Below are positions 5,201-64,000 of a DNA stretch of 64,000 nucleotides, in pieces. Position numbers and translations under genes: made by a program. The notes beneath the pieces are model-generated. The model was not told where the DNA came from. It made no database searches and worked only from the letters and a program-made list of their open reading frames with translations. Numbering within the stretch: the first letter of the stretch is position 1; every line of letters starts with the position of its first letter. The DNA lies in NCBI GenBank assembly GCA_950295325.1, contig OX485803.1:560001-624000 (forward strand), read 5' to 3'. This DNA comes from Polytrichum commune. Its lineage: Eukaryota > Streptophyta > Polytrichopsida > Polytrichales > Polytrichaceae.

Positions 5201-5279
5201 CCCTATGATCTACCCAATCATAGCACTCGGGGGTAGTTGCGTGAGCCAAATATTTTCAACCTACCATGTGGGAACCGAG

Positions 5280-5523: not shown

Positions 5524-5531
5524 GAACCAAG

Positions 5532-6904: not shown

Positions 6905-21509
<14,605 letters not shown>

Positions 21510-39858: not shown

Positions 39859-42800
39859 ATATTGAGCCAAAGCAAAAGAGTTGTTGTAAAAGTGAAACAA
39901 ATATCACTTCATAAATGTATGGAAATACCTACAAAACATATTGATCTTCAAACCTCGCTGGTTCATCAATCATATGCAAAATCGTAATGAGCCAAGCCCA
40001 AGCTATTGTGACTACATGAAACTTGAAAAGATTGAGGGGCATGGGTGATGAGGCCATCGACGTTGAGCCTTTCAAATCAAGCCAACCATTAACAATGGAT
40101 GAATGGTGTGAGACATTTATTCATATGCATGGATGTAACATATTGGGACGATGCATCTTCATACTAGAATAGTGGATGGAAACAGCAAGGTGGCATCCAT
40201 GAGGGTTGGCTTGGACCATGATAGGACCACATTAAAACATCATAATTTATATGCACAAATGCACTACAACAGGCTAGGATGATACGGGTTCAAGCTAGTA
40301 TTGTACATTAGACATTGTCTCTTGGAATGCCCAAACCCTAAACCTCGAGTCCAAGTTACATGCACAACCTAAGTTTATGGAGTCGTTGAGTTATTTTTCC
40401 TAAACCCTAAACCGAATGACGCAAATTTCCACACATCAAAAAATTTTAACGTCCAGGTGGAATTTCTATACATTGGCGTCATGAAGCCATTGACCTATGT
40501 TGAGACAAAGCTCAAAGGTACAAGTTCCAAGTCTTCCTCATCTATCAACGTGAGTGAGGTTGACAACATACTGGGATCTAATGGAGATCCTGTATATTCA
40601 TTTATATCAGTGTACCTCTTTGATGCAATGTCTATATGCATGTTGCCTATCATCATACTTACGACCTCCGACATTGTAGGACGGTTCGATGCCTTGTAAT
40701 GCATGCACAAGAGCCCGAGATCAATCATCCGCATGATGTTGTCTTTTGATGTTTCATCATGTTTCAAATTTTCGTCAACCATATTCCAAACATGATGGAT
40801 ATCCTTTAGTTTCCAAGCCTGCATTGAAACAAATGGATTTCATATTAAAACCAAGAAGACTCTTGACATTCAATAGATTATACCAAAGACATTGTTCTCA
40901 TCACAAATATTAAGTCACGTAACTACAAAATTGTTTTATCATTAGCGATGGAAGAAAATGCATGAAAGACTCGAAGGACAGACTTTATGATTCTTAAACA
41001 CTCTAGTAATTGACACAATGCAAATAAATGTATAAAACCTAAACAAATTGCTTAAAACTAAGAATTAAAGACATAACTTTTGCATGATTCTTGGACCAAG
41101 AAATATATTTTGAAGGTCGTATTATGGTGCATAGTTTGGAGCTTTGGAAGTACTCTTAGAAATAATGAACTGATTGATTTATGTTGGGCAAATGCTTCTT
41201 ATTTTTTTTAGATCAAAATAGAAATGTGAGAATTGGTCCCTATGCAGGAGACCATTATGAAATCAAGAACCAAGTTCATACGACTTCTTGTTTTCAATAG
41301 GTAAATGAATGAATTCTAGGTTGCTTATTGTTTCAAATCAAAACATAAATTGCTAAAATGAGTACAAGCATATTCTTCAAAGTTTTGTTTCTAGTGGAGA
41401 TTGAATGTAATCAAATGGATCTATAATAAGTTTTATTTCTAGCACATGGATGTGGCTTTAAAGCCATGTTTCACACTTTTGTTTGGTATGTCAATGCTTC
41501 CACATCATGTTTGGGAGAGGATTTCATTTGAAGCAAATTCTTACTGAGTGTTCTAATAAAAACTTAATAAACAAAAGAGGAAACATTGTGAACACTGGAG
41601 CCTCACATTACCACAACAATGCTTTCACCATATGACAAATTATGAATGTTATTACTTTTTTACATATGATGAATCTATTCATTAGTGAGTGAGAGAAATA
41701 ACTTTCTCAACAAAAATATATCTATTTAACGTAAGAAATTATTGCGCAGGTGGAATAATAAAATAAATTTAAGTATCATATGAACAATTCCATTAAAAGT
41801 CCATTTACAAAATTGTTACAAACAAAAAATGTCATCATATATGCATTATGTCACACCACCCTCTACCTGCATTCAAACTAACAAAGAATGATTATATTGG
41901 AAAATTGTGACATGTATAATTGTTCAAAACTTCCATTTTGCACACATGCTAAAGCATTGTGTCATGAAGTGTACTTGCATGTTAGATGGTTGGATGAATG
42001 CATTACCTTGATGATGGACTAATTGGAGGTTGATAAATTTGAGTCACGATCTTATTGTTAAAACCATCATACTATCATTGCTTATTAATTATATTTCTCA
42101 CAAACAATACATCATTCAAGGCTTTGATAACATGTATAATGCATACCCATTCTGATAATATTTGTTCATCCGGTGGTTTGCTCCAATCAATACACCTCCT
42201 TCCACTTATAACTTCAAGGACAAGCACACCAAAACTGTAAACATCGAGTTTTGTTGAGACGTGACCAAAACTCCCATATTCTGGAGACAAATACCCTCTG
42301 CATAAAAGAGAAAAACAATATTTATCTTGTTAGAGCACATTATTGTGGGATGCTTTGTTATTTAGCATTTTCAAAATGCATAATTTGGATGCAAGTAAAT
42401 TAAAGGATATTGATGTTATGCAATGGTTGTCTGTAGCAATCAACATCAAATTCAAGGTGCATACAATGTATCTCATTAAAGTATATGATAAATCCAAAGA
42501 TTTTTTTTCCCCAAGTATTCAATTTTGCTTTTGAATCACACAAAGTATTTGCTTAGTAATAACCTTTGCAATGCTTATATGCTTCTAATTTTGATTTTCA
42601 TGAATAATTTATTCTAAAATTTGAGATCTTGTTGTTTAATTTTTGTATATATGATGTAAGATTTATATAATATTTCTCAAATCCATGTAGAGTATTCATA
42701 GGTATTTGGCACAACATATTTTTCTACTTCACATTCATTCTTGAATCATCTTATGAATACAAGAATCATTTCATCATAAAACATACATCATTATATATCA

Positions 42801-42903
42801 TGATTGGTTGCTAAGATGAACTAATTTTGGAATAGGTGCAAAGTTGGCCCACATCCCCTTCCAAGTGTTTGCAACAGAAAATTCCATTCATAACATAAAT
42901 TTA

Positions 42904-43167
<264 letters not shown>

Positions 43168-46100
43168 TCAATGCACATGTAACATTGATGAGAAACGTAT
43201 ATGAGACATGAATACATCCATTGACTTAAAGAATCTAGAATATTAGGTCTCATGTATCATCCTTAGTGGTTTGCATACAATTGCAAAACTCATTGAACAA
43301 TCATGTAGGTTGTTATCAATAGCCATTTGTATTAATATAATAATATTATATAATTTTTGAGTTTCATTAAATTGATATCCTCCTCAAACTATCGTATTTG
43401 GACTACAACAAACAATATAATTTGTATTAATGTAATGTGTTTATTTTGATAATGATATTGAACTTTTTTACATATCAATTCAAATACTATTCATTGAGTT
43501 CATAATCAATGAGGGCAACCCAAAACATTAATTGATATTTATTATCTTGTGTTCATTAACCTATGTTACAATGTTCATTTCATGGGCAAACCAGTGCCTC
43601 ATATTGATAAATTTGGACATGTACATACACCCCCAATACAAGTAGTGTCTATATTATAGTCCAACACCAAAGATACTATATAAGCAAAAGATCTTATTGT
43701 TTCATATTGATTGTGTTTGGTTTAACGAGTTCATATTAAGGGGCACATCCATAATATTAAAAATGAAGGGCTTGCTAGTGTGGCACCGTTCTTATAGAAT
43801 TATTTATCTTCACTCAAGAAAAGACACATCCTACTTTGAAAATCAAAACTTCAAATTGGAGATCGACCTGAAGTTTTGAACTAACTTTGCCATTGACGAG
43901 TGTTTTTGAACGCAAGTTTTTTGACCACGACCCAAAGCACTATTGAAGCTTCTTGTGTGTGGATCTCTCTCTCTCCCTCTCATCAGTGTTTCAAACCCAT
44001 TGGATAGTGCTCCCGATCACCAAAGGGCTTTCTAGTTTTACCTTAAACACTGCTTATGACAAACTAAACAACAAGCAAACAACAAGTTTCATCCTTAACG
44101 TTATTAATCCAATCAAAGGTAAATCATACCCCATAACGCCTCCGCAAGATTTTTGTTCTCCACATATTCGTATACCAAGATTCTTTGATCCCCGGACAAA
44201 CAACAACCTTTCAATTTCACCAAATTTCGATGTCACACGTTTGAAATGACCACTATCTCGTTCAAAAACTCACTCAACATTTGTTTTGATGGAATTAATC
44301 GCTTGACTGCCACCACTGTGCCATCTGAGAAGGTCCCCTACAAATGATCAAATCAAAAATTTCATCAAAACCAGGGATTATAATAACAAGAAACAAATTT
44401 TCTTGGTTTTGTAATTTTGTGCACACATTCTTTTTGTTTGGCTGCTTTGGAACTAAGGGATTTCATTAACAATCTACATAGAAATGATGTGAGAGGAAGG
44501 TAGGTGGAATATATTTGGGTGCAAGCATGGTTAAGTGGACCCAAACAATGCTGCATTATACTAAACCCATATGTTTTTGGTCAAAGGCCTAAAAGTAGTA
44601 GCAAAGTGTTATTTAAATTGGATTATTTTTCATGATGACCTCTATTGTTGTGTTAGATACTCAAATGTAGAATATCAAGTTGAGATGTCTAGAACTTATC
44701 ATGAAAAGTGATGCTCAGAAGCACATGGTTGAATTTGATTTTGAACATAAATTTCATGACCTTAAATATTTTGAAGTTGGATTTTTTTTCATATTTCTTG
44801 AATTCATTATATACTTGAGGTCACCATCATCAAACTTTGTAGAAAACCATCGATTTAAGGTAATTTTATCATATTCTAAACAAACTTTAGACAATTACTT
44901 GTTTAATGTCACCAACATGAACACCACTTGCATTAATATGTAGACTTTTCTTGGAATTGTTTTCATCATCATAAAATTGCTTGGCTTTGTAGATCAATAT
45001 GGTTTTTGGATGTCCATGACATTTTTTTTCCTAAAATCCAAAGTTAGTGTATAGTATTGAAACACTTTCACTTGAACCTAGGCAGGGATCAAGAATTGTC
45101 CACTTTACCCGTGCTTGCACGCATTCACAAGACATATACATTTATATTTTGTTGATCTACAAGAAGTTTTATTGATTCTTACCATAAGTAATTACATATA
45201 ACATATGGTACTACAAAATGTGCTTAATTATGTCTATTTTGTTATGTAAAATAGCCTAGCAAAAATTGGAATGAATAATTTTTTTGGAGAATGAGTACAT
45301 CTAGAGGGTGAGTTAAGTCATGTTAAATAGATAGCAAGGATTCGTTGGAAACATGAATGGAATTTCAATCACCGTGGATGAGATTTGGTTCATTACGTAT
45401 GAAATCTTGTCCAATGTTGAAGAAGTTTGGTTCATTGTGGTTGGAACAAGAAAAAATAATGGGGTTTTAAGGGCTAGAAGCATATTGAGCTAGTTTTCTC
45501 TTTACATTATCATTTTGCACAACTTCCTCAATCACGTAAACACGCCATCTTCATATTGTTCATATGTTTTGTCATTTTTCTTTGTTTCCTACTTGACATA
45601 CAAAGAAGGAACTCCACTCCAATACCACGAGGGAAAATTTGAATTTCTACTTCATGTAAAGAAAATGGGGTAAAGTTCATTGCACAAATTTGGAATCTAT
45701 GATAACCTATAGGGTGGAGGACAATGGTGATAAGTAGGATGTTTCATAATTATAGGGTGGGAAAAGAAATTCAAGGACTAAGATAAATAACCTCTATGCA
45801 AATACTTGGTTCTTACACATGTATACCAATATTCTTTAGAGGTGCCTTCCCCAGGCTTCGGAAAAGTTTTCTACATTTTGATAAAGAAAATGTGTGAGCA
45901 TGACAAAAGTGGTTGGAAGATAAAATATAAAGAAATATAGCTAAAAAGTACCTATTACTTCTAAAATGAACTAATCCTTAAATGCATTTGTTGAATCAGA
46001 TATGAATGACTTCCTTGCACAAAAACAAAGAATATCTCATAGAAATCAATAGGAATACGCACCTTGTACACAACCCCAAATCCACCTTGTCCCAACTTGT

Positions 46101-46697
46101 TTGAAGGATTGAAATCGTCCGTGGCAACTCTTAACTCTGCATACGAATAAAGATTGGGCTTCACATCTTTCTTTGACAACTCTGACATCACCATGTGGAA
46201 TGGACCATGAAAACATGCTTATAGCCTCAATCATTTGAATGTTTTCAAAATGATGGTACAACGATTCACTTTTTCAATAGAGAATGAGTTTCTTTGGGAT
46301 GGTAGAAGATCTTGTACCTTCTTGAATGTGACGCAAGATTTTCACCTCTTTACAAAGTCGATTTATTACGACCATACTTATAATGGAAACCAAAAGAATG
46401 ATGCTTGATGCAGTGGAAGTGATGATAATAATCAACTTTCGTTTTGAATCTCTTTGTACAACTGATTTCCAAGGCAAACCAATGTCAAAAACTTATAATC
46501 ATAAATATTATGGGTATTCTAGGCAACTGAATATTGTATTAACTTTGTCATAATGTGAAATGTCCATCAACATACATGTGCATAGTTCTTTATACCCCAT
46601 AAAATAATCATAAATCTTAGTATCATTCCAATATAGTTGTACACATTCTCTAGCTTGAACATCAAGAATTTTGTTATACAATGTGTAAAATTGGAAG

Positions 46698-48657
46698 GAC
46701 CAAATATCACCAAAAAGCCTCCACCCTTCAATTTCGTCCTAGCCCGAATGGAGAAGTTTATAATGACATGTAGAGATTTCTCTCTTTGTAACACAATGTA
46801 TGATTCCAATCTATCGTTGGAATATACACAACTTAGCCAAGTCTATACTATGTCTTTTACACTCCTTAATTTCGGGTAATGTCACATCCTTGTACTTCTC
46901 TAAAGTCCACCCTTCCGCTTTGGCCACGCATGCCTTCAAAGATATCCCTCTTGTGAATCGAGTCCTTGCCGTCGACTCCACACTACTACATGAGTTCTCG
47001 CTTATTGATTCCATGAATTACACAAGTTTAAGTATTGATAAATACTTGTCACTTATTCTAGTTTTCTCCTCACGCTTCAACCACTATATTGGTTTAATGA
47101 ACTAATGGTTATCCCTAATGGAACCAAACAAACTTCTCATCTACTCGGAATGACTTGAAATTTGTACCACAACTAGGAGACATAAGAACAACGCATCCCT
47201 CAAAATTTCATGCATTTTCAAGCCTCTGTCCAGGAGTTATTCCCATTTCAGCTCGAAAATGTAGGCGAAGTTCAGAATGTCATAACTTCCTCTCACAGGC
47301 TCCAAAGACCTTCAAATTTTGGGAGCAATCACAAAAACTAGTTGTTTATGACCCCCTGAAATTTCAAACTATTTTCATTGTCGGCCAAAACGTTATGGCC
47401 TTTTTAGTCTGCAACTCTTGAAAATACTTCAGAATGATATATCTCCTTTTCATCTATTCGGAATGACTTGAAATTTGTACCACAACTAGGAAACTTAAGA
47501 CCAAAGCATCCTTCTAAATTTCATGCGTTTCCAAGCCTCTGTCTAGGAGTTATGCCCATTTCAGCTAAAAAATGTAGGCAAATTTCAGAATGTCATAACT
47601 TCCTCTCACAGGCTCCGAAGAATTTCAAATTTTGGGAGAAATAAAAAAAACTAATTGTTTATGACCCCCTGGAATTTCAAATTATTTTCATTTTTTGCCA
47701 AAACGTTATGACCTTTTTAGTCTGCAACTCTTAAAAACACTTCAGAATGATATATCTCCTTCTCATCTACTCGGAATGACTTCAAAATTTGTACCACAGC
47801 TAGGAAACCTAAGAACAAAGTATCCCTCAAAATTTCATGCGTTTCCAAGCCTCTGTCCAGAAGTTATGCCCATTTCAGCTCGAAAACGTAGGCGGAGTTC
47901 AGAATGTCATAACTGCTGCTCCAGTACTCCAAACATCCTCAGATGTTGACCATGTTCATATAAACAAGTTGTTTACTAACCCTCTAAATTTTAATGAAGT
48001 ATCTTTTTCTGCTCGGAAGTTATGCCCCTTCCAACCTAGACTACTCAAGAAATACCCAAGAAATATGAACTCAAGTACTACAACTTGAAGCCATAAAATA
48101 TCTTAAAATTATTTACACCAAAACTAATTCTAACAAAAGTTTAAGCCCTCTTCAAGGCCAATTAGCCTTGGCTCTCCAACTAAAAACTAATCACACACAT
48201 GTGCTCCAATCTTGCTTCCAACACACCCACACTTATAACACGTGGGGTGCCTTGGAGCACGAAGGGAAGAAAGAATGAGTGAGGGAAGAATGGGGGATTC
48301 TATAGTGAGTTTGAGGGGGTGAGCACCCTCAAGGCTCACGATAAGCCTTCGAGATCTCCTCCTACTTTGTAGGTTCTAATCCTATCTCCTAAGCCTTCCT
48401 CCCTCAAATGATCAACAAGGATCCTAATTCAAACATTTAACTAACCTTGGCTTTTTACCTACCACACTTTACCAATGTTTGTCCTTCTCCTACTTAAATC
48501 CACTCCACAAAAGCCTAATGCTTCAAACTAAGCTTTCTTCAAGCTTCACTCTTTTTATATTTTTGTGAATAATCATAAATCACCAAAACACCACTTGTAA
48601 TGTTTTACAAGTGTTAACAACCAATGTGGGCATCAATTTGGGCTCACACCAATACAT
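46698..48657 (-). mobile_element. LTR-related insertion with 316-bp tandem repeats, inside the RLK pseudogene
   Basis: Boundaries come from comparison with the uninterrupted exon at 13151-13299. On the minus strand it starts TGTGAGCCCAAATTGATGCCCACATT, split here only as an indication of similarity to the solo LTR start TGTGAGCCCAAA. The next several hundred bp also resemble the solo LTRs (AGCCAAGGCTAATTGGCC, GGTGAGCACCC and similar landmarks). The other end does not match the solo LTR 3' end. Flanks show CCAAT/CCAAA, a possible 5-bp duplication with one change. The middle holds three head-to-tail repeats of about 316 bp (starting near 47140, 47456 and 47772). No gag or pol is recognised. Confidence 0.7.
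47140..48060. repeat. Three tandem ~316-bp repeats
   Basis: Each unit starts near CTACTCGGAATGACTT and contains CAAGCCTCTGTCCAG, GTTATGCCCATTTCAGCTCG and CAGAATGTCATAACT. The third unit is truncated and diverged. They lie inside the LTR-related insertion. Confidence 0.8.
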
Positions 48658-50753
48658 GCAGAACGTGAAGTAGCAATATTCAAACCTGGTTGTTGTTGAG
48701 GAGAAGTCGAGTTGAAGCAACATATCCTTGACATGACATCATTTTTGATGTCATTGCACACTGGATTTCCTCCAAGGCTGAAGAACATTCACAAGAGTCT
48801 CTTGTTTAATATGATTAGATTTTAAAGGAAATGTTAGCACACTTGTCAAGGCTGTTTAATTTGAATGTGAGTGTACACATGAGAATGATGTTCCTTAAAA
48901 GGTTTTTCGCCTATTTTGTAGTTTTGAGTATTTGCATAAAATGTTTCTACACAAGTTTAGACGAGGTAAAGCAATTATAGATTTCAGCTTGAAAATCTTA
49001 TGACTAATGAGCATACCCCAATAAGGAAATATATTGAAACTTTGTATTATTCTATGTTATAAATAATCATTTGTGATAAGTTTTTAACTTTCAACACAAT
49101 TATTACATGCATATGGAGGAATAGTGTGATACTTACAATAAGATATCTGAAAATTCAAGGTGGAAAGAAGACAACGGTGACTCTGGAGTTCGTGGTGGAA
49201 ATGCAATGTCAAGATGTGGTTTTTCACCAAAGAGATAGTGCTCAAGGATCCATTATTTTGAAGCAATGGAAGCTCCGAGTTTCTATCGAATTGATTGCCA
49301 TCAGCATATCTGTGAAACCACTTTGTGTTAGCCTATAAATTGTAGATGTGTTTATAGAACATGCTCTTGATTGTTGTTGAGATTCGTGAAGCAACTGGGG
49401 GCATTCATGGTCGGGGTACTACTTTTGAGTGTCTAATGGTTAAAGGACTAAGTTGGATAACTTTACATAATTGGTGTGCTTAGATTTATATTGTGGAGCA
49501 TATTTTGGATCATACCTACATTTGATATTCCATATTGAGTACATCGACAAAGTTAATTTACAAGGAATGGGGTTATCTAAGATATCATTTTGATTCCTTA
49601 ACGGACATCCATGGGTGTTGTCAAAATTGATGACCTTAAGATCAAGGAATGAAAATGACAACAAAAATTAATTGAAATGATCCCGATTTTTTTCCTCACA
49701 ATTATCGTTCAATTGTGTACCAATAGAACTAAAAATGTATTGCATATCAATTGTATAGCTTTACATATGACACTAAACATGGCCAACATTACACACCAAC
49801 ATGGCTACATGAAAAAGAAACGTTTAGTATTAGAATTGGACATTAAAAAAATCTATATATGGACACATAACATTTACACCAAGGTACTAGGATGGAAAAC
49901 ATGGAATAATTCACCTTTGATGTACGCTTCAATAATGAAATTATTATTGATGTGGACCAAACAAGTCATATGACCTCTTTATAAGTCCTATGGCCTATCT
50001 ACTCATTTCATAGAGACTTTATTTCTTATTGGTCATTATTTAATATTAAATCATACCTTTCTTGATAAGTCTTATGACCTATGTACTTATCTATTCAAAA
50101 TTTATTGTTCAAATAATAATGAATCTTAATAAACGCCAAGATTCAGTGCGATATAGTCCTTAATTCCTTTGTCCCAAAAGTAGTACCCAAATCGTGAGTG
50201 GCCCCAACTATAAGATTTTTGGAGGGTGCCCATATGGAGCCTTAAGAATCTCTTATTATCACACATAATCAAACACATGAGAAAGCACTAGGAGAAAACT
50301 TGTCCATTACAACCATCCTTTGTGGCTTGTCCATTGCAGCTCATGGCAAGAAAGTGCAAATGTAAATCATTTCCATTGTCGTTTGTTCAAAAGTTGCAAT
50401 CAAAAACCTTTGGTTGACAACCACAATGACATATTTAGGAAATATCGTCATCAATTAATGGACAAGCCACTAATAATGATTGAAATGGCCAAGCTTGCTT
50501 CTAGCAATCACTAATGTTTTTGTAACTCATTACATTCTAGTATCCTTCACTTCAAGTTTTTGATGTAAAGAAGTCCCAAACATGAAGGCCAACAAACCCA
50601 CAATTAATTTCATTGGGTTTAAGAAGTCCATCATAATATTCATTCAAAGGACATCAGAATGGCCTTACAAATATGTTTTTGAAGATATTTTGAAATTTTA
50701 TATCCATGTACTTTGGCCCTCTCTATACATCAAGGAATAACCTTAGCTTAACA

Positions 50754-51288
50754 AGTAACACTATATTCGTTAAATTGAGACTTTCTCTAGTCTCAAATTA
50801 ATATATGGATCAAAGAACTTGAAGAGGCCCGAAACTATATTGTCAACAATCTCAATTATATTATATGTTCTAATATCCCAAATCTATGATGTGCGGACAT
50901 AAGCACATATGGTAGAGCACTCGACACCAACTTCATCAACAAAAACACATTGGGTAGAGCACTTCAAACAAGTTTCACCCAAAAATATATATAAAATGAT
51001 TTCTATTATTAGCATGTTCAATAGAATATAGACATTGCAACATACAAAGTGCATGTAATAAATGCATGTTTCTTCATTCGAGAATATAGTCCCAAGCATA
51101 ATAATAAGATGAACTTCAATTGCAGCTTGAAATATAGTAAATGGATATTCATCCAACTCCAAACAATATAGTATTCGTAAGTTCTACCCAAACTCTGCCC
51201 CAATTTTGAAGAGCACACATATGTGTAATTTATATTGCTATAATTACGTATTAAACTATAATCATGCTAACACAATCCTACCAACTTC
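50754..51288. other. Intergenic
   Basis: Between the end of the duplication and the 3' end of the DUF7869-type gene. Nothing is recognised. Confidence 0.5.
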
Positions 51289-54200
51289 TCATTCAACGTG
51301 GGTTGCTTCTTCTGCAATCCGAGCAAGGTTGTCTTTTGCAAAAGTTATGTACTTTTGAGGGATGGACACTGATCCACTATGGTGTTTCCGTGGTTTCCAT
51401 GCTATGAATATGGAATCTGTATCTACCCAAGATGGACCGTGCTCAGAATCCACCTTCCACCGAAAGTTAGGGTTTGTATCCCAGCCTGTATAATGCCGAA
51501 TCACATCTTCATTCCTTGCTGTCGGTCGATAGTACTCCACTTGTATTTGTCGAAAATGAGGGCTGGAAGTTACAAAATTGGGATTGGACAAAGCTCTTGC
51601 CACCCACACTGGCTTCGCATATGTCTCGTCTCCAGGACGCAAAATGAGCATATAACCTTCATGACAATCCACTGCAATGCGGAAAGATGGTGGGGGACGA
51701 CTACTAGCAGGCCCCACGTAATGGTCGTCCACATCAAACTCCTCTCGAACCTCTCCATTTCCCAAAAGACTAGGCTCTGAAGCTTGTACATCGACTCGTG
51801 TTTGTGGCCAAAATCCATGCCTCAAAGTATGAGGGCTATCTTGGTGGAGGTCTGCCAAGGCGGCACGAACACGTGTCCAATAATGTATCCAACTCCCATA
51901 ACGATGCCAACATGATCCGCCAACATCCGCTATTTTCAAACTCTCCCAATATTGTATGAAGCCTGATATACCTTTCAAAATATCCTCCAAATTCTTCATG
52001 GCTATTGGCTTACAAGGCCTAGGCTCCCCATCCGGTAACATGGTCTTTCCATCCGCATCCACGCGCCACACAAGAAGACCCTCCGGCGGGCTCCAGTCTT
52101 GTGACGTGCACAACAACTTGTATTGCATGGCCGGGACACCATCGTCACGCATATAGAAGCGGAATTGTTGTGCCTTCGTATGCCCGATCAATCGGTGAGC
52201 TCCACTTCGAATATAAGGTTCTATAAATGCCTTGAAGTCTGGCACCTCCTCAATCATATGGGGGATGACGGGAACGTTCTCCAAATCCATATACGACTTC
52301 ATCAATAATGGAATTGTAGGAAAATCCTCCTCCCGCAACTTCATGCTCCACCGCCCAAAAGATGCATCAATATCATCGTGCGTGTGGCCTACCAATAGGA
52401 AGGACACAAAAACCTCCTTGAAAATGCCTTTCGCAACCAACAACGACCAATATGCAAATACATATCTGCTTTTATTGTCCTTGGCACAATTGTCCAATTG
52501 GACACGCAAAGTTGGAGGCAACTTCTTGGCAATTGTGAGCCCAAAAGGGTGCCCACATTTAGTCTTAGACCCTTGAAACGTTAGTTGATGCACTTTGAAG
52601 TAGCATGTTACTTCACAAAAATATAAAAAGAGTGAAATGTTAGTCTTAGAAGTACCATGTTGTAAGAGGCTAGGATGTGAGTTGTTATTGTGTTTTTACC
52701 TTCGGAAGGATTTGAGTGAATGAGGATAGGTAAGGAGAACTTGGATTGAGTAGTTAGTGAGTAGGCTAGTACAAATGGATGGAGACAACCAAAGTGACTC
52801 AAGAGGCAAGTGCATTCGAATTGGGATGAATGGAGGATCACATGGAGCGCACAAGTGGACCACCTCATCATGGCCACTTAATGGGGAAGGCCCAAGGAAG
52901 AATGCAAGGTGGAGGATAAGCAAATTCTCAAAGCACCAATCAAATCACGAGTTAAGCATCGTGGTTTGAATTAAGTGGTGAGCGACGATTTGGGAAAGTA
53001 AGGGGAGAAAGTTATGGCGGCGGAAAGCGAAGGAGGCTAAGTTTGGGTTGAAGCATCCCAAGTTTGGTAAAGTGTGGTAGGTAGAAAGCCAAGGCTAGTT
53101 AAATGTTCGAATTAGGATCCTTGTTGATCATTTGAGGGAGGAAGGCTTAGAAGATAGGATTGGCGCCTACTAAGTAGGAGGAAATCTCAAGGGCTTATCG
53201 TGAGCCTTGAGGGTGCTCACCCCCTCAAGCTTACTATATAATCCCTCATTCTTCCCTCACTCATCCTCTCTTTCCTTTGTGCTCCAAGGCACCCCACGAG
53301 TTATAAGTGTGGGTGTGGGAAGCCATATTGGAGCACATGTGTGTGCTTAGTTTTTAGTTTGAGAGCCAAGGCTTGTTAGCCTTGAAGAGGGCTTGACCTC
53401 TTGGTAGAATTAGTGTTGACGTGAAGGATTTTAAAGTTAATTCATGATTCCAATTTGTGGTACTTTAAGTTCATGTTTTGAATACACGTGGTTGCAAGTT
53501 CCATGTTTAAGAGTTGAGCACTTGATGTTGTGATGAGTGCAAAAATATACTTGTGTGGATTAGTTAGTCTTAGTGAAGTTAGGAAATTCTCTCTTCCCCT
53601 CTCCTCTCTAGGATTTTAGGATTTTAGGATTAGAGAAGAATTGTGTGATTAGAAAGGGGTTGTTAGTAGAATTAGGGAAATTAGGTAGGAAGATTAGTTA
53701 AGGGCTTGAATAATTAGTGAGGTAGTTGGGGATTACAACTACAAAGTTGTGGGTTCATGAAGGAGCTGGGTTTATGAAGGAGTTGGGTTTGTTTAGTTAG
53801 AAAGTAAAGAGCTGGGTTTATGAAGGAGCTGGGTTTATGAAGGAGCTGGGTTTGTTTAGTTAGAAGCTAAGAAGCTGGGTTTATGAAGGAGCTGGGTTTA
53901 TGAAGGAGCTAGTTAAATCCAAGACCACTTGAAGGGTGAACCTTGCACTATGGACTCATCCAAGTCCAAATCCAATACCGCGGAGGAATGTGAGCCCAAA
54001 CCCACTACTCGGACTACGGACGCTTAAGGGTGGGGGGTTTGGCCTCACAGCAATCACGGGTTCATTGGGTGGCTCGGGCAACGAATGCAAGCATACATCT
54101 TTTCCATCCAACACCGCTTCATATAAAGGTGTTGAACCCGTGTTCTCAAATAACAATCCTGAAGAATAGGCTGGTGGTTTCTCTAAATCACGTAAAAACC

Positions 54201-55874
54201 TTGCAAATGATCCTATCGTGTGGTTTGAATCCGCTGGATACAAATCAAGAGCATAATGAGCAAATTTGACATCACCGTGTCTATGTGCAATTATTCCTGC
54301 AATGCCAACCCAACGTGATTAGCATCTATGTATGAATAAACCATTATGAAGGAATCCATGTTCTCCAGTACATCACGGAATAAAATACAACAACATTTAG
54401 GGTATGTCATGACATTGTTTCGAAGTTCACCTGTAACCGATACAGGCAACTTGAAAAACCCATCCGTGGCCTTGATTCGATTTGTAAAACATGGGGAGGC
54501 TGTTTTGGCATGGTCCATTTTGTCATGGATGACCGTAAGAACCTCCAAGGGCCTGGAGATGGATAAAGCTCTATTTGTGTAGTAATCATTACGGTGTGCC
54601 TCTTGCATGTTTACGTGCTTGAAATAGTTCAATTGATGCGCTGCATATGACTCGGTGCCCATCGTGTGTGCATCCCGGAGGCGCTTCAACTTCTCGCAAT
54701 TAGAGCACCTGGCAAATTTGTCCCCTCGTCTTTTTGTAATGTATTCGCTAAAGTTTTGTTTCTTGATTGCACTCAATTTTGACAATGAAATTGGCTCCAA
54801 CCCAATCTTCTCGCCAACTGCATTAACGTCCAACAATATGTCTTTCCATTTTGTGCCTGTGGGAAGAACTTTCTCCACAACCTTTTCACCGGTTGTGAGT
54901 GTGCGTGTTTTGTGCGGCATTGCATCGGCAAGAGGGACAATGATGGTTGCTAGAGTGGCCGTTGCTTGCCTTGTTGCTTCCCTAGGCTTCTTTAAACCCA
55001 CGTTACCATTGTGACGGGACCGGCGGCCTTCCTTGGCATAAGCAGCTTGTCTATAAAAGTCCGATTTCGACACACCGTGAATGGTGTACCATGCCTTACA
55101 ACACACGTCTATGCTTTTAATGGTGATGACCTTGCGACCCGTCCCATTCACATGTATCGCCCTATGGACATCAAGTTTTCTTGTGGATCTTAGACGGAAA
55201 TCTCCAAGCCACATTTCTTCGCGGATGACCTTCAATTTATCCCTTGGAAACAATTGGCAACAACGATGCACACAACAATCCTTTGTGGCAACTTCTCTAA
55301 TGGACTCCTCCCCGAGCAACCTTTGACGTTTACAATCAGTTGCAGACGGAGCAGGACGTGCCAATGTATCGTACTTTCTTTGACCCTTGCGCGGCCGCAT
55401 GTTTGATTGCACCTCCTTTTCGATTTGCATGTGTCGTTGCTCATGTTCACGCAAGCTAACTCCATCAATTGTGACATTCCTCAATGGCCACCTGCGGAGG
55501 GAGAACCTATGAGTGGGATCCACCTCGGAATGAACGACCGACTCCAATATGACAACCCCAACGTCCTCAGTGCCAAGCGGGTTTTCATCAATGCAATCTT
55601 GCGGATGGGTGTTACGGCAAATCCCCTCCGCCACAACAACTCCACTATCGTTAAGAAGTATCACCTCCAAATTCACCCACGAAGCCCTTGAAAGTCCCGT
55701 ACATTCAACAATGGGACACTGCGGTACGGAAGACGAAGGTAAATCCAAATGATCTTCATCCGCACTGTCAGCCATAGTAGCCTCCCCGACAATGTCTAGG
55801 TCATCATCAGATGCAGATGGCCAAGTGGCCATGTCATCAGATGACCAATCCCCTATTTCACTAAACCCATCCAT
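51289..55874 (-). pseudogene. DUF7869-type (RNase H-like, transposase-like) gene split by a solo LTR
   Basis: The likely start is the ATG at 55874 (MDGFSEIG), just after an acceptor-like GTAGGCAG. The first part (55874-54291) holds an acidic N-terminus, a Cys cluster (CCVHRCCQLF), a second one (RCSNCEKLKR) and DKMDHAKT. An apparent 5-bp insertion near 54296-54303 shifts the frame at DANHVG; the next segment continues to 54050 (YPADSNHTIGSFARFLRDL). After the LTR the frame resumes at 52533 with KKLPPTLRVQLDNCAKDNK, then FLLVGHTHDDIDASFGRWS, a hallmark of DUF7869 proteins in plants and animals. It stops at 51289. I infer an RNase H-like nuclease fold of transposon origin, but the biochemical role of the family is not known to me. 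The LTR lies exactly between the DANHVG and LDNCAKDN blocks. Confidence 0.8.
52534..54049 (+). mobile_element. Solo LTR, copy 2 (1516 bp)
   Basis: Same termini and length as 29942-31457, with TGTGAG...CTCACA ends. It is flanked by a perfect 5-bp duplication GCAAT at 52529-52533 and 54050-54054. Removing the LTR and one duplication rejoins the DUF7869 reading frame exactly in phase, so this is a recent insertion into an otherwise largely open gene. The tandem GAGCTGGGTTTATGAAG block is at about 53752-53912. Confidence 0.92.
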
Positions 55875-56086
55875 TCTGCCTACACACATGAACATTGAAC
55901 ATTGTCTTAAAATCACAAAAATTGTAGGTTCAAATCGAAGAACAAAAAAACCATCATATATAAACAAAATTGCAAATACTCAGTGCTCATACAAGTTCAT
56001 ATGACTGCTATGCCATTGGGCTTGTAAAGGTTTCGGAAGGCCAGTGGCCACACCGGCACCCAGATCCCAACCACACTTAGAGGCTG

Positions 56087-57358
56087 GGTTTGGGTCGAGC
56101 GACCCAAACCTTTTGGGAGGATGGGTTCAGGCTCAATACAGAGAGCACCCACACTTAGGCGCTGGATTTGGGTCGAGCGACCCAAACCTTCTGGCAGGAT
56201 GGGTTTAGGCTCACTACAGACAGCATCCACACTTAGGGGCTGGGTTTGGGTCGAGCGACCCAAACCTTTTGGCAGAATGGGTTTTGGGTCACGACAGGGA
56301 GCACCCACATTTAGAGGGCTGGGTTTGGGTCGAGCGACCCAAACCTTTTTGCAGGATGGGTTCAGGCTCACAACAGTGAGCACCCACAGTGTAGGGCTAG
56401 GTTTGGGTCGATCGACCCAAACCATGAGGCAGGATGGGTTCAGGCTCACAACAGTGAGCACCCACAGTGTAGGGCTGGGTTTGGGTCGATCGACCCAAAC
56501 CATGAGGCAGGATGGGTTCAGGCTCACAACAGTGAGCACCCACAGTGTAGGGCTGGGTTTGGGTCGATCGACCCAAACCATGAGGCAGGATGGGTTCAGG
56601 CTCACAACAGAGAGCACCCACACTGTAAGGCTGGGTTTGGGTCGACCGACCCAAACCATGAGGCAGGATGGGTTCAAGTTCAGAACAGTGAGCACCCACA
56701 CTGTAGGGCTGGGTTTGGGTCGATCGACCCAAACCATGAGGCAGGATGGGTTCAGGCTCACAACAGAGAGCACCCACACTGTAGGGCTGGGTTTGGGTCG
56801 ATCGACCCAAACCATGAGGCAGGATGGGTTCAGGCTCACAACAGAGAGCACCCACACTGTAGGGCTGGGTTTGGGTCGATCGACCCAAACCATGAGGCAG
56901 GATGGGTTCAGGCTCACAACAGAGAGCACCCACACTGTAGGGCTGGGTTTGGGTCGATCGACCCAAACCATGAGGCAGGATGGGTTCAGGCTCACAACAG
57001 AGAGCACCCACACTGTAGGGCTGGGTTTGGGTCGATCGACCCAAACCATGAGGCAGGATGGGTTCAGGCTCACAACAGAGAGCACCCACACTGTAAGGCT
57101 GGGTTTGGGTCGACCGACCCAAACCATGAGGCAGGATGGGTTCAGGCTCACAACAGTGAGCACCCACACTGTAGGGCTGGGTTTGGGTCGATCGACCCAA
57201 ACCATGAGGCAGGATGGGTTCAGGCTCACAACAGTGAGCACCCACACTGTAGGGCTGGGTTTGGGTCGATCGACCCAAACCTTGAGGCAGGATGGGTTCT
57301 GGCTCAATACAGAGAGCACCCACACTGTAAGGCTGGGTTTGGGTCGACCGACCCAAAC
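56087..57358. repeat. 17-copy tandem array, 78-bp unit centred on a palindrome
   Basis: Each unit contains inverted arms GTTTGGGTCG and CGACCCAAAC around a 2-bp core (centres from 56098 to 57347). Spacing is 78 bp throughout except one 79-bp step between units 3 and 4. The core is AG in units 1-4, then AT, with AC in units 8, 14 and 17. The rest of the unit (GATGGGTTCAGGCTCA, GAGCACCCACACTGTA) is nearly invariant from unit 5 onward, while units 1-4 are more diverged, as at an older array edge. Because 78 is divisible by 3 and the unit lacks stops in several frames, ORFs of over 300 codons open on both strands; I regard these as artefacts. The array lies upstream of the DUF7869 gene and 4 kb before the ParB-like gene. 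Confidence 0.92.
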
Positions 57359-57980
57359 AATTCCGCAAAATCCGCCTATTTATTCGGGTGATGCTCTATT
57401 AATCTATTTATAACCTATTTGGGACAACTGAACTCATAGATGCTTGTTGTAATTAGCTGCTCATGAATGGAAGCGTATACAAACCGTGTATTACAGCTCC
57501 AACTTAGAGAGCTTGCAGCAATCTCAGGATTGGGACATGAAAGAAAGAACCAGCATTTGGGGGGGTTGGGCTCTTTATACTACCCGCCTCCGCTTTGGGC
57601 ATCCTCTTTGGATGCCTTTCCCACCTGGTCTCCTTTGGATGTTAATTCAAACCTTCTGACTCAATTTCCCGCTTCTTGTCAATAATAGAGAATGTATATT
57701 TAGCTTGGCTCTTCGTTGCCCCAACCACCAAATGAATAATTCAACATATATTTAAAGTTGTTACCACCCTAACTTGGTCAACACTATTCTTCAACTCTTT
57801 CATAATTAGTTTTATACATGAATACACCACCACCTTCCCTATTGCCATCTCCTTTCTCCTTTTATCATTGTTGTATATTTTTCTCACATCCTTACTAATA
57901 CTAAATCCCTATATGTAACTTCCATATATCACCATAGTGGATATTTAGTGTTTGAGTTTACATTTAATGTTACTTACTCT
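57359..57980. other. Intergenic
   Basis: The short plus-strand ORF at 57467-57685 has no recognised motif. No other feature is seen. Confidence 0.5.
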
Positions 57981-58114
57981 CATAGGGTTAGTAATGGGAA
58001 GTGTATGCGTTCGTTTTAAGTGTATCAAACACTAACTATCATATAACTAAAAAGGATATAAAGGTTTTGATACACTACATATGAACGCATACACTGAATA
58101 CCAATAACCCTATG
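57981..58114. repeat. 134-bp hairpin with ~52-bp imperfect arms
   Basis: CATAGGGTTA (57981-57990) pairs with TAACCCTATG (58105-58114), and the arms continue through GTGTATGCGTTC against GAACGCATACAC and GTGTATCAAA against TTTGATACAC, leaving about 30 nt of loop. This could be a small MITE or a structured transcript precursor. I could not identify a target duplication. Confidence 0.7.
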
Positions 58115-58927
58115 ACAATATGTAAGATTATATCTATTAAGGGGTTTTACTCTACTTGTAGTCAAACATTATGGTATATTTCAAACAATATATTGACAAA
58201 AGATGTGCATGTATTATAAAACTTCATATACTAAAAGTCACTAAATATAATAGTTAATGCTATTATTTAGACTCTCACATGAGGACTTATATTTTGAAAA
58301 CAAATAATTAATGCCATGACAAACTTGAATAATTTGGCCAACTTTCAATTTCTGCTAATTAAAAGAACATATGTTGTGTTGTAATGTGTGCACCCAATAT
58401 TGCTTCATCCTCAAGACTCCAAGTGTGACAATAACCTAGTACCTATGTGGAAGTCATTAATGGAACCCTAAACCACAAATGACATTTGGCACGTTCAATC
58501 TTCCAAGGATGTTTGAACCTATCGTGAAGTCCCTTGAACTCTACCAATGTGTGTGAGCAAAACATGCAAAGTTCAAAAGGTATGTCCTCATATCATTCAC
58601 AACATGAAATCTACTTTAAATTAATATATTATATTTCACTATTCCAAATAACATGTTAACATGAACAACATCCTATCCATTATAATCTAGTTCTTATGCT
58701 TTTCTTACCAGGTGACAAGGTTATAGGTTAATATTGTATCACCTACTTGTGAGCACAATATCGTTTATTTCCTTTAGTGCGTTCATTCGTGAAAAACCAC
58801 ACATCCATCTTTCACGTTTGTGAATTAGGATGTTGTGATGACAATATACATTTGTATTGGAAACTACAAGCACCAAGGCCCATGTCATTTGACCTATGTG
58901 CCATCCAGTTATGGTTTGTGTTGTTTA
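58115..58927. other. Intergenic
   Basis: AT-rich; nothing recognised. Confidence 0.5.
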
Positions 58928-58960
58928 AGGTTTAGGGTTTAGGGTTTAGGGTTTAGGGTT
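58928..58960 (+). repeat. Interstitial telomeric repeat (TTTAGGG)~4
   Basis: Four consecutive plant-type TTTAGGG units with imperfect flanking units (GTTTAAG, GTTCAGG). This is an interstitial telomeric sequence, as left by break repair or found as telo-boxes near promoters. It supports plant origin. Confidence 0.9.
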
Positions 58961-59480
58961 CAGGCATCATCAAACATCAAACTGAATGTTTAAATGACTT
59001 CATATGATATGTGAACTCCATGGGGTTGCAGTAGATACATTTGTAATCATTTGTTTCTCCCATGTACTTCAAATGTGAACTTCTAAGTACATATATTAAT
59101 GTTCACTCTAATGCTACTTGTTAGGGTATCCATTATAGACTAGAGCATTGTCCTCTACCAACAACCATCATATAAATTACAATACATAATCCTAAACTGT
59201 TAACCATGTGAATGGTTACCATATTTATATTATTGCACCGTGTAATTGCCTTTGTGGATTGCAATATAATTATGACTTACTCCTCTTAGACTTTGTAACA
59301 CTCTCATATGATTCCATAAATTACATTATTCATACACCAAAACGATAATGGCTACATTCAACGATGTTATCAATTCCAACGGGTGATCATTCAATTGAAC
59401 ACCATTAAAATATGAGTTGGTGATGGTGTTAATTTTGTGGAATACCTTAGTCCACGTAGGTTTTTGACTGGTATTGAATT
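58961..59480. other. Intergenic
   Basis: AT-rich with no feature. Base composition rises sharply in GC just after this stretch. Confidence 0.5.
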
Positions 59481-59720
59481 GCCGCTAATGAATAGCGGGT
59501 TAGAAGGCCGGGGCCGGGCGGCCAAGAGAGGCGCCGGCCCTCCTATGTCCCGCACCTAGGGGCAAGGACAACCAGGAAGGCAATCTCCCTAGGGTGGCAG
59601 GTGTCAACACCACAAGCCTCGCGGGCAACCACCTAAACCAAGGAGGTGTCGACACCTGGCAAGGTGTTGGCCCGCGAGGCTTCTGAGCCGTTGATGGGCC
59701 CGGCGCAATCTAATGGCCCG
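59481..59720. promoter_or_regulatory. GC-rich segment with inverted repeats before the ParB-like gene
   Basis: A sudden GC-rich stretch (GGCCGGGGCCGGGCGGCC, GGCGCCGGCC). It contains an AAGCCTCGCGGGC / GCCCGCGAGGCTT inverted pair (about 59614-59626 and 59670-59683) enclosing a 12-bp palindrome, GGTGTCGACACC. It directly precedes the polypyrimidine-rich presumed transcription start region. It may be promoter-proximal or mark the boundary of an inserted GC-rich segment. Confidence 0.5.
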
Positions 59721-60342
59721 GATTCGAGGGTTTAGGGTGACCCCTTCCGCTCTCTCCTTCTCTCCCCTCCTCTTTTTTCTTTCTCTCTTTTTCTTCCTCT
59801 CTTCCTCCGCGCCAAGCGCCGCTCTTGGAAACGCCGCCGCCGCTTTCCATAGCGCCGCGCCAAGCGCTTCCTCTCGCACCTTTTGCTTTTGTCTTGGTCG
59901 CGCCGCTTCCCTTCATTCTTCTTTCTCCTTCATTCCTCTCCTCCTCTCTGATGCTTCTCCTCCTCTTCTCTCATTCTATTCCTCTTGTTATTGTCTTCCT
60001 CTTCTTATTCTCTCTTCTTGGTCCAGAGTGTTAGCTTTGAGTGAGTTCGGAGCGGTTTATTGTGTTGAACTCCTTACTTGTTTTGTAAAATTCATGCATG
60101 GAGTGATTTTAGGTTGAGTAGAAGTGAGCACGGTCGAGTGTGATAGAAAGGTAGAGGTCTTTCAAATTAGGCCTGAGTTTGCAAGAATCAGGGGGTTTGT
60201 GAGAAAGTTTTAGGGTGCTTGAGAGATTCATTGTGTTTCTGAGATCTTTGTGAGAGTTGTTCTTTAGTGCCACAACAGAGTTTCTGAGTCTGGTTGTAAG
60301 AAGCAGATTGTGAGAGCAGCTTTCAAGAGTTTGAAAGACAAG
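59700..60342 (+). other. Presumed 5' UTR exon of the ParB-like gene
   Basis: A strongly pyrimidine-rich stretch at about 59740-60010 followed by ordinary sequence ends in a strong donor, GACAAG|GTAAGC (60342/60343). The matching acceptor TTGGATTGCAG lies directly before the ATG at 61464, so the first intron (60343-61463) would lie wholly in the 5' UTR. The exact transcription start is not determinable. Small ATG-led frames in this exon look incidental. Confidence 0.55.
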
Positions 60343-61463
60343 GTAAGCAATTTGCATCAGTGCACACAATTTGCATCATTCCCTTTAGGTTCCTGTTACA
60401 TATACAATGCATAAGCATTGTATATGTTGCCCAAGCATTAAACATGCATCTGGAAACACAGTAGTTTGGGGAGACGACCCAAACTCATATTAAAATATAA
60501 TAAATATTTGAATTGCAGCCTAAAATGAACTAAATGTTTGGGTCGTTCGACCCAAACATTGCAGCCTCTTGTTTGGGTCGAGCGACCCAAACATTGGAGC
60601 CTCTTGTTTGGGTCGAGCGACCCAAACATTGGAGCCTCATTATGTTTGGGTCGCTCGACCCAAACAGTACAGGGAGAAGAACTAAACCACATTGTAAAAT
60701 ATAAAAGAACTTTAAAAATTAAGTAAATGTTTGGGTCGTTCGACCCAAACATTGCAGACTGAAATGACTGGGTTGAGGTACCTAAATTTGCAGCCTAACA
60801 TGTTTGGGTCGCTCGACCCAAACATTACAGGGAGAAGAACTAAACCACATTGTAAAATATAAAAGAACTTTGAAAATTAAGTGAATGTTTGGGTCGTTCG
60901 ACCCAAACATTGCAGTCTGAAATGATTGGGTTGAGCTACCTAAATTTGCAACCTAACATGTTTCGGTCGGTCGACCCAAACATTACAGGGAGAAGAACTA
61001 AAGCACATTGTAAAATAAAAAAGAAATTTGAAAATTAAGTAATTGTTTGGGTCGTTCGACCCAAACATTGCAGTCTGAAATGAATGGGTTGAGCTACCTA
61101 AATTTGCAGCCTAACATATTTGGGTCGCTCGACCCAAACATTACAGGGAGAAGAACTAAACCACATTGTAAAATATAAAAGAACTTCGAAAATTAAGTAA
61201 TTGTTTGGGTCGTTCGACCCAAACATTGCAGTCTGAAATGAATGTGTTGAGATACCTAAATTTGCAGCCTCATCATGTTTGGGTCGCTCGACCCAAACAT
61301 TACAGGGTGACCACCTAAACCACACTTTAAAATCTAAAAGATCTTTTAAAACGACTTTGAAAATTAAGTAAATGTTTGGGTCAATCCTCCAAATGTTAAA
61401 TGCACATTGCAATACTTTGGGTCGATCGACCGAAACTCACAGTTTCGATTTCTTGGATTGCAG
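60343..61463 (+). repeat. Intron 1 of the ParB-like gene, packed with palindromes
   Basis: The palindrome of the 78-bp array recurs at about 60536, 60571, 60606, 60644, 60729, 60802, 60887, 60960, 61045, 61119, 61203, 61277 and 61413, with a weaker variant at about 60464. The first ones lie in short units of about 36 bp. From 60729 there are four repeats of about 158 bp, each with one TT-core palindrome and one CT-core palindrome about 73 bp apart. Sequence between palindromes is AT-rich and unlike that of the 78-bp array. Confidence 0.85.
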
Positions 61464-64000
61464 ATGGCCCCTAAAAGGAGACCAGGTGAAAGGTGGTTCA
61501 TGCTCGCGCCAGACCACCTTTGGCAGGAGTATGAAACTCCACAGGACGATTCTTACGTCCCAAAAGATGGCGTCGTTTTGGCATGGTCCGTTCAGGTGGT
61601 GAAGGCATCCATGTTCAAGCTGCTATTCGTGGTGAAGGTGGGGACCCACGAGCAGCACACCTGGGCAACGCTGACGGGATGGGAGGTTGCGTCCGTCCAG
61701 TCTCTCGGGGACTACGTAGACGTCATACTGGAGAACTCCGCCGTGCAGAACGTCCACATGTTCATGCACCAGTTCTCCGAGCCCTTCGACCCCCTGTACG
61801 CCAAGGAGACTTGCGTCGACCCTGAAACCATAAAACCGGAGGCCATATTCATAGATGGTAGTGTAACGAACACGAAGGTTGCGAGCAGGTTCACGAAGTT
61901 AAAACAGGCTATCACGGTTCTCAACAAGGCGCTGCAAAGCAAACCCAAGACGCAGCAGCCTGTGAGGCGGAAGGCAACGACGGAAGAAGGCGCAGGGTCC
62001 TCAAGACCACAAACTGTGAGGAAACCGCGGGCGGTCCCTGCAGACTCGAGACGGACGAGCACTACAACAACGCCGGCTGACAGCGAGACGCCAACGCCAT
62101 CAGGAAGCCGTCAGACGATCCCTTCCAAGAGGGGAAGAGAGTCATCGGGGATGACTGACGAGCCTGTTTCCCCGGAGCTCCGGATGCCGAAGCCTGGCCA
62201 AGAGGTGGATGCAGGCGAAATACAAAAAATAAACAACAACTTCGAGACAAAATGCCTGCACTGCTTCTTCATGGGCAGGGACTTCAAATTCGAGGTCAAC
62301 ATTGCGCAGTGCCACCTTGCGCCACCAGAGAAGTGCGTCCGAGCCAAGGAGGACGCCTACGTCGACTGGATGGTCGCTCAAATCTTGGGCGGGCAGTTCA
62401 AGGACGACAGGCAGACAATTGTTGTCATGCCACAAGGGCTGAAAAGAATGCCGACGCCTGAGATGTGGCCGGCAATCTCTAAAGGAGACTTCTGGCTGAT
62501 TGACGGGCAGCACAGTGTGGAGGCCTCGAAAAAAATCCAGCTGATGACCGAGTGGGACGACCCGAACAACCAGAAGGAGAAGCTAAAAGTTTGGAAGGCT
62601 TTGGTGGTTTGGTCGGACAACGAGACGGTCCTCAGCGACATCTCCAGGTTCTTCAACATGGGGAACAAAAAGAGGGCCTATCAGGCATCGTGGATCAGAA
62701 ACATCATGGCCTCGAGGGAGGTGTGGGAGTTTTATGGAAGGCCTCCCAAGGAAAGGGAGAATGCTAAAGACAAGAACCCCAAATGGGAGGTGAGTATGTT
62801 TGGGTCGATCGACCCAAACTCCTACATTGTTTTGTTGTCATCGCCAGGTTGATAGTTTGGGTCGGTCGACCCAAACTCTGAAATTATTTTGATATTGTCC
62901 CCAGGTTCATAGTTTGGGTCGGTCGACCCAAACTCTGAAATTGTTAAGATGTTTTCGCCAGGTTCATAGTTTGGGTCGTTCGACCCAAACTGCTGTTGCA
63001 TTTGTTTTTCCATTATGTGTTGCCTAACATGTGCTAATGTCTTCCTGTGCAGGACTTCAAATATCAAATGATCAATAAATTCTCCTCGATCGACAATGCT
63101 AGCCACAAGCAGAAAAAATATAACGAGCTGAGAGGAGAAATCTATTTGATCACAGCGTCCGATTCCGTATGGGCAAGATGGAAGAGTGTTTTTGAAAAAC
63201 ACGAGACGGGTGACCTCATGGACCCCGACACCGGCATGCTCTTCAACCAGACTGGGCGTTTCAAGCAAATGAAGCCTCTGGTGAGGGAGTTCTTCAGAGC
63301 GCTTCAAGGTCTCTCCGAGACAGAGATGGGAAAAGCGGCGTCCCACATCCTACACGTGGAGACGACGGCGAAGAGATGCTGGGTCCACCCTAAGATCGTC
63401 TTCACCAAACCCAAGATCTTCGTCCCTTCATGCTACACAATGAAGGAATGGACGGAGAACAGGAAGAAGAAGACGACCATCGTCCAGGAGCTGCACAAGC
63501 TTGTGCCAGAGAAGAAGCTCATCGTGGACGGAGAGGTCGACGAGGCGCACTGGAGGGCCTTCAAAGCCGAATATAAGTTTACCAGTGCGTCCATGGCGGC
63601 ACTCATGAGGGAGGCGGGAGACGACTTCCTCAGATCCAAGCTCGTGAAGGGGGGGAGGAACCGGGCGCTTCCCGAACACTCAGTGCGGGCCTTCTCCAAC
63701 TTCATAAAGGAGAAGAAGATCGTCAGTTTCGAAGGCGATGCGCAATTCAACATGGTCACTGTCGAACCTCTCAGGATCCAGGGTTGGCCGGGTTCTGAGT
63801 CAAGGAAGGCGATCAGGACTAGAGCCGGGGACCGCTTCCCCTTCGGAATGATAGACTTCAGGAACATCCCTGGAGCCTCATTCGAGGGGACTATGAGCAC
63901 CCCTTTTTACGATCCTTTCTTGTCGAAGTTCGTGGACTACGCCAGCCCCAAATTCAGGGAGGTCGACGTCTGGCTCTGGATTGTCGAGGACAGAAGGGCA
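61464..64000 (+). CDS. ParB/DGQHR-domain protein, intron-containing, partial at right edge
   Basis: The first coding exon is 61464-62789 (442 codons), with ATG immediately after a CAG acceptor. Its donor is GAG|GTGAGT. The second exon runs from 63053 in phase 0 for 316 open codons to the window end. Residues 1-160 are an unrecognised domain. Residues 160-250 are low-complexity Thr/Ser/Pro/Arg. Residues about 295-420 look like a ParB/Srx-fold domain: DWMVAQILGGQFKDDRQTIVVM, FWLIDGQHSVEASKKI (347-362), then SRFFNMGNKKRA. The DGQH motif recalls DGQHR/DndB-type proteins, but the usual Arg after DGQH is Ser. The coding region is GC-rich, especially at third positions, unlike the AT-rich RLK, which suggests transfer or an element-borne gene. 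Nuclear function is unknown; DNA binding is an inference. Confidence 0.75.
62790..63052 (+). repeat. Intron 2 of the ParB-like gene with four palindromes
   Basis: This GT-AG intron (GTGAGT ... TTCCTGTGCAG) carries palindromes at 62798, 62855, 62912 and 62969, spaced exactly 57 bp, with cores AT, GT, GT and TT. The repeat context (CGCCAGGTTCATA before, CTCTGAAATT after) differs from both the 78-bp and 158-bp units. Confidence 0.88.

Follow-up and report, generated by a model that had tools for sequence, protein, structure and literature searches.

The window analysed here, a 64,000-nucleotide stretch of the genome of the moss Polytrichum commune (GCA_950295325.1, contig OX485803.1, positions 560,001 to 624,000), contains in its right-hand part a DNA transposon of about 18.1 kb that carries many copies of a short palindrome. 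The palindrome, GTTTGGGTCG-NN-CGACCCAAAC, is 22 bp in length and is made up of two 10-bp arms around a 2-bp core. Between window positions 56088 and 62990 it occurs 34 times at up to three mismatches (30 exact copies, three with one mismatch and one with two), in close agreement with the approximately 35 copies of a first-pass annotation made by eye from the sequence. The near-invariant arms and the variable core that it described were likewise recovered, with AG, AT, AC, TT, CT and GT all found at the centre, and a search at the same threshold confirmed its remark that the first 56 kb of the window lack the palindrome. No palindromes appeared in 100 dinucleotide shuffles of the window. Six further copies lie beyond the window edge, giving a total of 40 for the transposon.

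The limits of the transposon are revealed by self-alignment of the window together with the adjoining locus L001. An older repeat (41406-50756 and 68841-70000), which is a copy of 7857-16454, is split by the insertion of about 18.1 kb; the inserted element occupies 50757-64000 and continues to window-equivalent position 68840 (L001:8840). A 28-bp terminal inverted repeat is found at 50757-50784 on the plus strand with its right copy at window-equivalent 68813-68840, the 4-bp target-site duplication AAGT (50753-50756) stands on both sides, and the empty insertion site is visible at 15284-15310. A separate insertion at 46700-48647 also interrupts the older repeat. A relative of the element, K2 (C1:2112001-2130000), is complete, with an identical 28 bp at both ends and the target duplication ATAA. 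The repeat units that had been described, namely a 78-bp unit with 17 sites, a spacing of about 36 bp, a 158-bp unit with two palindromes and a 57-bp unit, are all real, but they are not four unrelated contexts: because they lie within one inserted stretch with inverted repeats, a target duplication and an empty site, they all belong to a single DNA transposon, referred to here as family 1. This element is young, since 32 of 95 scored genome matches to an exon query (61464-62789), the window's own match included, are 99-100% identical.

The minus strand of the element encodes a DUF7869 protein, which we take to be the putative transposase. The 3' part of the gene (51289-52533) matches Pfam PF25273 over the cut-off (E 7e-38), while the 5' part (54050-55874, with an ATG at about 55874) is an open frame that has an 81% identical protein in K2 and no Pfam match of its own; no literature mention of DUF7869 was found. 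Between the two parts a 1.5-kb mobile element (52534-54049) is nested, which is absent from K2, has ends TGTGAG/CTCACA and shows an apparent 5-bp duplication, GCAAT. Copies of this nested element are present at 29934-31457 of the window and in locus L006, where it has landed within a palindrome and is flanked by ACGAC at either end.

The plus strand carries an accessory gene whose model, like that of the minus-strand gene, depends on splice sites placed by consensus only. Its predicted coding exon 1 (61464-62789) contains a DGQH motif, has no Pfam match and holds no palindrome; predicted exon 2 (63053-64384, to 64000 within the window) has consensus splice sites; and predicted exon 3, which starts at 64597 outside the window and has two overlapping frames, so that its reading frame is uncertain, leads to a NIF/FCP1-like phosphatase region (Pfam NIF, E 4.5e-15). 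The palindromes were placed with respect to these two genes. The 78-bp array with its 17 palindromes (56071-57358) lies in the 1.5 kb that precede the minus-strand gene, where a 5' intron of that gene may hold it. Thirteen more (60536-61436) lie in a predicted intron of the 5' untranslated region of the accessory gene (60342-61463), at 35-38-bp spacing between 60536 and 60665 and in the 158-bp unit with two palindromes that reaches 61351, and the 57-bp array contributes four (62798-62991) to predicted intron 1 (62790-63052). With three sites in intron 2 and one in intron 3, the intronic total is 21, two sites fall in predicted exon 3, and exons 1 and 2 (2.66 kb together) hold none; 38 of the 40 palindromes are thus either intronic by prediction or in front of the minus-strand gene. 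All are internal, the outermost being about 5.3 kb from the left end of the element and about 2.7 kb from the right, and in K2 they occupy the corresponding gene positions, again away from the ends.

Across the genome (408 Mb) the palindrome is present in 9,231 exact copies and in 11,977 at up to one mismatch; the reversed pattern gave no match in either search. The genome has seven large contigs of 42-78 Mb and a repeat of the TTTAGGG type, in keeping with a land plant. Among the first seven clusters listed, from the first 2.2 Mb of contig C1, three belong to family 1 and four (L006-L009) to a second family. Nine further loci, eight of which were chosen for a rare core and so do not form a random sample, all match family 1 when their palindromes are masked, the best reference covering 1,022-2,575 of 3,500 bases, and three more clusters match known family members by genome coordinates. 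Thus, all 19 clusters that were checked among those listed genome-wide fall in two families, and no free-standing copy is among them. This answers the question whether the genome count would reduce to one ordinary satellite family: two element families with different spacings share the site.

The proteins of the second family show no detectable similarity to those of the first. When family-1 proteins, both opposite-strand and accessory, were compared by tblastn with eight family-2 loci, none matched, against 81-93% identity for the control, K2. Family-2 palindromes are spaced 31-34 bp apart and lie, as judged by eye, in introns of both genes; the plus-strand gene carries a DGNHR motif with a methyltransferase-like region downstream, and the opposite-strand frames that were compared with Pfam have no match. 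A CTCPDF motif in family 2, which we take to be SWIM-like, had suggested a MULE, but this label was dropped for want of a Pfam match, and the listed matches to PF10551 (150 scored of 271 candidates) include neither K4 nor K5.

The arms of the palindrome are far more strongly conserved than the DNA around them. At four homologous family-1 sites, compared in 14, 14, 11 and 15 copies and sought at up to five mismatches, so that lost sites would escape, arm divergence is 0, 0.014, 0 and 0.020, while divergence of the 20-bp flanks is 0.134, 0.176, 0.183 and 0.254 and that of the central two bases is 24, 13, 33 and 32% (L039 was left out of the three late sites, and L038, L043 and L046 also out of the last one). 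The first two of these sites lie in predicted exon 3, three of the four are single-copy sites, and the first site of the 57-bp array was compared in 15 copies. Within the 78-bp array, 16 units diverge by 0.6% in the arms, 14% in the flanks and 28% in the core. A satellite whose whole unit evolves evenly would not give this pattern; arms at 0-2% and flanks at 13-25% are very unequal, in agreement with the earlier view that conservation attaches to the palindrome itself and to no larger satellite. Family 2 keeps the palindrome less strictly than family 1, because among sites with up to four mismatches in the fetched loci 36 of 68 are exact in family 2 and 296 of 366 in family 1.

The core, though variable, follows a rule. 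A pyrimidine-purine step is found in only 38 of the 9,231 exact copies, always as CA or TG and never as TA or CG, and 5,475 copies have a purine-pyrimidine core; genome copies are related by descent, and these counts are therefore not independent events. In the nine further loci the rare cores are scattered among common kinds, as single non-spreading changes would be. The rule is specific to the GTTTGGGTCG palindrome, as other palindrome classes have TG, CA or TA centres. We infer that it may reflect a dimer site whose centre is recognised through DNA shape, as is the case with phage repressors. The palindrome is, in sum, a real and strongly constrained DNA site of transposons.

A further pattern emerges when the family-2 accessory protein is followed through its relatives, which were found down to about 41% identity. 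A repeated palindrome is present in 22 of the 26 loci surveyed, and its sequence differs among them: the GTTTGGGTCG class occurs in five loci, of which four have TGTGCGTTAACGCACA as well, TGTGCGTTAACGCACA by itself in two, GGTTTCGG in two, GCCTCGG in one, GTGTCTCGG in nine, GGGTGCCG in one and ATGCCG in two, the GCCTCGG class overlapping GTGTCTCGG within two mismatches. On the protein tree, several nodes of which are weakly supported (0.08-0.74), the seven classes need six changes, which is the minimum; 2000 shuffles needed 12.1 on average and never fewer than 9. Palindrome class therefore tracks protein clade in the 22 loci that have a class, and linkage within the element contributes to this. 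A stronger point than the tree match is that unrelated arrays within one element, and two dissimilar families, share the same palindrome. The second palindrome, TGTGCGTTAACGCACA, is situated upstream of the family-2 accessory exon in L007 (about 4722-6378), L013, L015 and L032-L034, and is present in L013 and L015 without GTTTGGGTCG. Locus L026 (250-2745) has 12 copies of a 32-bp palindrome, AAATGTGTGTCTCGG-CA-CCGAGACACACATTT, at about 224-bp spacing.

The methyltransferase-like region of family 2 was mapped relative to the accessory exon. On contigs C1-C7 there are 80 matches to N6_N4_Mtase, most of them weak and below the curated cut-off; 28 lie 3.2-7.6 kb downstream of a family-2-type exon on the same strand and none upstream, whereas 500 random shifts gave a mean of 0.2 and a maximum of 2 such placements. 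The other 52 are not near a listed family-2-type exon, the 242 exon positions being drawn from match lists of 154 and 150 minus low-scoring fragments and repeats. The last exon of K4 matches PHROG DNA methyltransferases (4.9e-5), and K4 exons match a 577-residue frame of L059 that itself scores N6_N4_Mtase at 1.1e-7; K4 has QFPDG where L059 has DIPYG. The G-N-H-R of the DGNHR motif, which we take to be ParB-like by motif resemblance only, is invariant across 12 aligned sequences; no Pfam family was found for the DGNHR or DGQH exons.

We consider it probable, though well short of certain, that the palindrome is the dimeric binding site of an accessory protein encoded by the element itself and used for self-recognition or anti-silencing, in the manner of VANC and VANDAL. 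What the analysis shows is that every checked cluster lies inside the elements, that the arms are under constraint, that the core follows a rule and that palindrome class agrees with protein clade. The site behaves as a selected binding site should, which favours that suggestion of the first-pass annotation; that it is bound, by which protein, and with an anti-silencing outcome, we infer. Under the proposal, the palindrome would act in cis as a transposon DNA site, and an element-encoded protein would bind it as a dimer, touching both 10-bp arms directly and sensing the central base step by DNA shape only. The likeliest binder would be the accessory protein encoded on the strand opposite the transposase gene: in family 2 the protein with the DGNHR motif, after which comes an N6/N4-methyltransferase-like region, and in family 1 the one with the DGQH motif, after which comes a phosphatase-like region. 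Arrays in introns and upstream regions could then mark the element for recognition by its own protein, and this recognition might keep the element active or protect it from silencing, much as VANC acts on VANDAL elements. A broader version is possible but rather doubtful: an address system in which each accessory-protein clade would have its own palindrome in the introns and promoters of its element, one palindrome having been adopted by a dissimilar family, either by hitching on the protein of the other or by convergence of both proteins.

Several observations weigh against an element-encoded binder of this kind. The proposal does not account for the binding of one site by proteins of two families without tblastn similarity. 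ParB homology of the DGNHR and DGQH proteins was not supported by any sequence comparison, as Pfam, NCBIfam, PHROGs, the PDB and hhalign gave nothing significant; Pfam ParB_N (PF02195) has no match on C1-C7 and four genome-wide, on the small contigs C10, C12 and C23; and profile alignments of family-1 with family-2 proteins, and of these with bacterial proteins of ParB type (three were used), did not reach significance. Single-sequence structure prediction for the window protein gave poor models (pLDDT 33.7 and 32.7). The methyltransferase-like part of K4 seems to be without the catalytic motif and may be catalytically dead, and family 1 has no methyltransferase-like match. Four of the 26 surveyed loci lack a repeated palindrome in the approximately 3 kb read upstream, among the loci without one being L029 and L030, despite an unbroken frame. 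Finally, the agreement with the protein tree is partly simple linkage, since palindromes and protein genes are carried together by an element, and the naming of the palindrome classes came only once the loci had been viewed. As regards the ParB_N matches themselves, contigs C10, C12 and C23 look like bacterial contamination, and L057 on C10 (96-2261) holds a bacterial-type ParB-methyltransferase frame with an apparent intein, seen by eye. No relatives of the accessory proteins were confirmed in viral contigs.

Other explanations for the palindrome have to be weighed against the same evidence. A host transcription or chromatin factor, for which both families would use the palindrome as an enhancer or insulator, would account for one site in two dissimilar families; however, all 19 clusters checked lie inside those families, and related elements carry quite different palindromes, as is expected of element-encoded binders, so that a host factor is unlikely. 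About as unlikely is a transposase binding site serving transposition. CACTA elements have subterminal repeats that are bound by TnpA, and the presence of the palindromes in transposons, in many copies per element, is in keeping with such a role, but the sites in the window element are internal, those of K2 occupy matching gene positions and not the ends, and the two families that share the site have opposite-strand proteins with no tblastn match to each other.

Action at the level of RNA, with the palindrome folding into an intronic hairpin that serves splicing or the production of small RNAs, seems a little less plausible again. The arms can pair and 21 of the 40 sites in the window element are in predicted introns, yet the arms hardly vary, which leaves no compensatory changes to show pairing, and the strict rule on the central step would be more like DNA-shape recognition than an obvious loop rule. 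Very improbable, in our estimation, is an ordinary satellite or a functionless self-propagating micro-element, self-propagation of a very small element having been one of the possibilities raised in the first-pass annotation. Tandem arrays do exist and copy number does vary; against this, arms and flanks diverge unequally at three single-copy sites as well as in the 78-bp array, and no free-standing copy is present among the 19 clusters checked. The inequality and the confinement of every checked cluster to two repeat families led us to reject both forms of this explanation.

Two features of the window lie outside the palindrome-bearing element. A 313-bp tandem repeat of 2.5 copies (47133-47914) is located within the insertion stretch 46700-48647, and a 672-residue open frame on the minus strand (31669-33687) with a stretch resembling RNase H by eye is perhaps part of a non-LTR retrotransposon.

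Transposon self-protection from silencing is, to our knowledge, best understood for VANC in Arabidopsis, and the present genome offers an apparent second, independent case, with a sharp site, thousands of copies, classes matched to protein clades and two families. Among the literature matches listed, no paper was found that links accessory proteins of ParB/methyltransferase type to palindromic sites, and the occurrences of GTTTGGGTCG concern other subjects by title; the papers that join ParB with transposons, palindromes, eukaryotes and DNA methyltransferases are prokaryotic by title. Bacterial ParB, a protein with a DGxHR-like motif, has a palindromic site, parS, and the moss elements resemble this system in joining a protein of similar motif to a palindromic site; they differ from it in showing no detectable sequence homology, in having arrays of many sites and in being eukaryotic transposons. 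Sola1 of Ectocarpus is an algal transposon with ParB-like and DNA methyltransferase accessory proteins which, the authors of its description suggest, may bind and modify their own element (PMC12477816). The moss elements share with it a large size, a gene opposite the transposase strand and a methyltransferase-like region (PMC12477816), but the transposase families differ, that paper nowhere uses the word stem palindrom, and the relation of the moss-element protein to ParB rests on the motif. The algal ParB-methyltransferase accessory proteins thereby gain a candidate kind of target.

The likeness to VANC and VANDAL lies in the layout. VANC proteins bind short motifs repeated in VANDAL introns and upstream regions, and motif and protein evolve together, such that the motif differs between related elements (PMC5735166). 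VANC21 recognises a 9-bp directional motif, YAGTATTAY, in contrast to the 22-bp palindrome of the moss elements (PMC5735166), in which, moreover, one motif is common to two dissimilar families. In both systems a short motif recurs in the non-coding DNA of the element, introns and sequence upstream of the transposase gene among it, the arrays change through tandem duplication, and the motif varies among related elements in step with the protein (PMC5735166). With this apparent second system, coevolution between a selfish protein and the DNA address it would use becomes directly testable.

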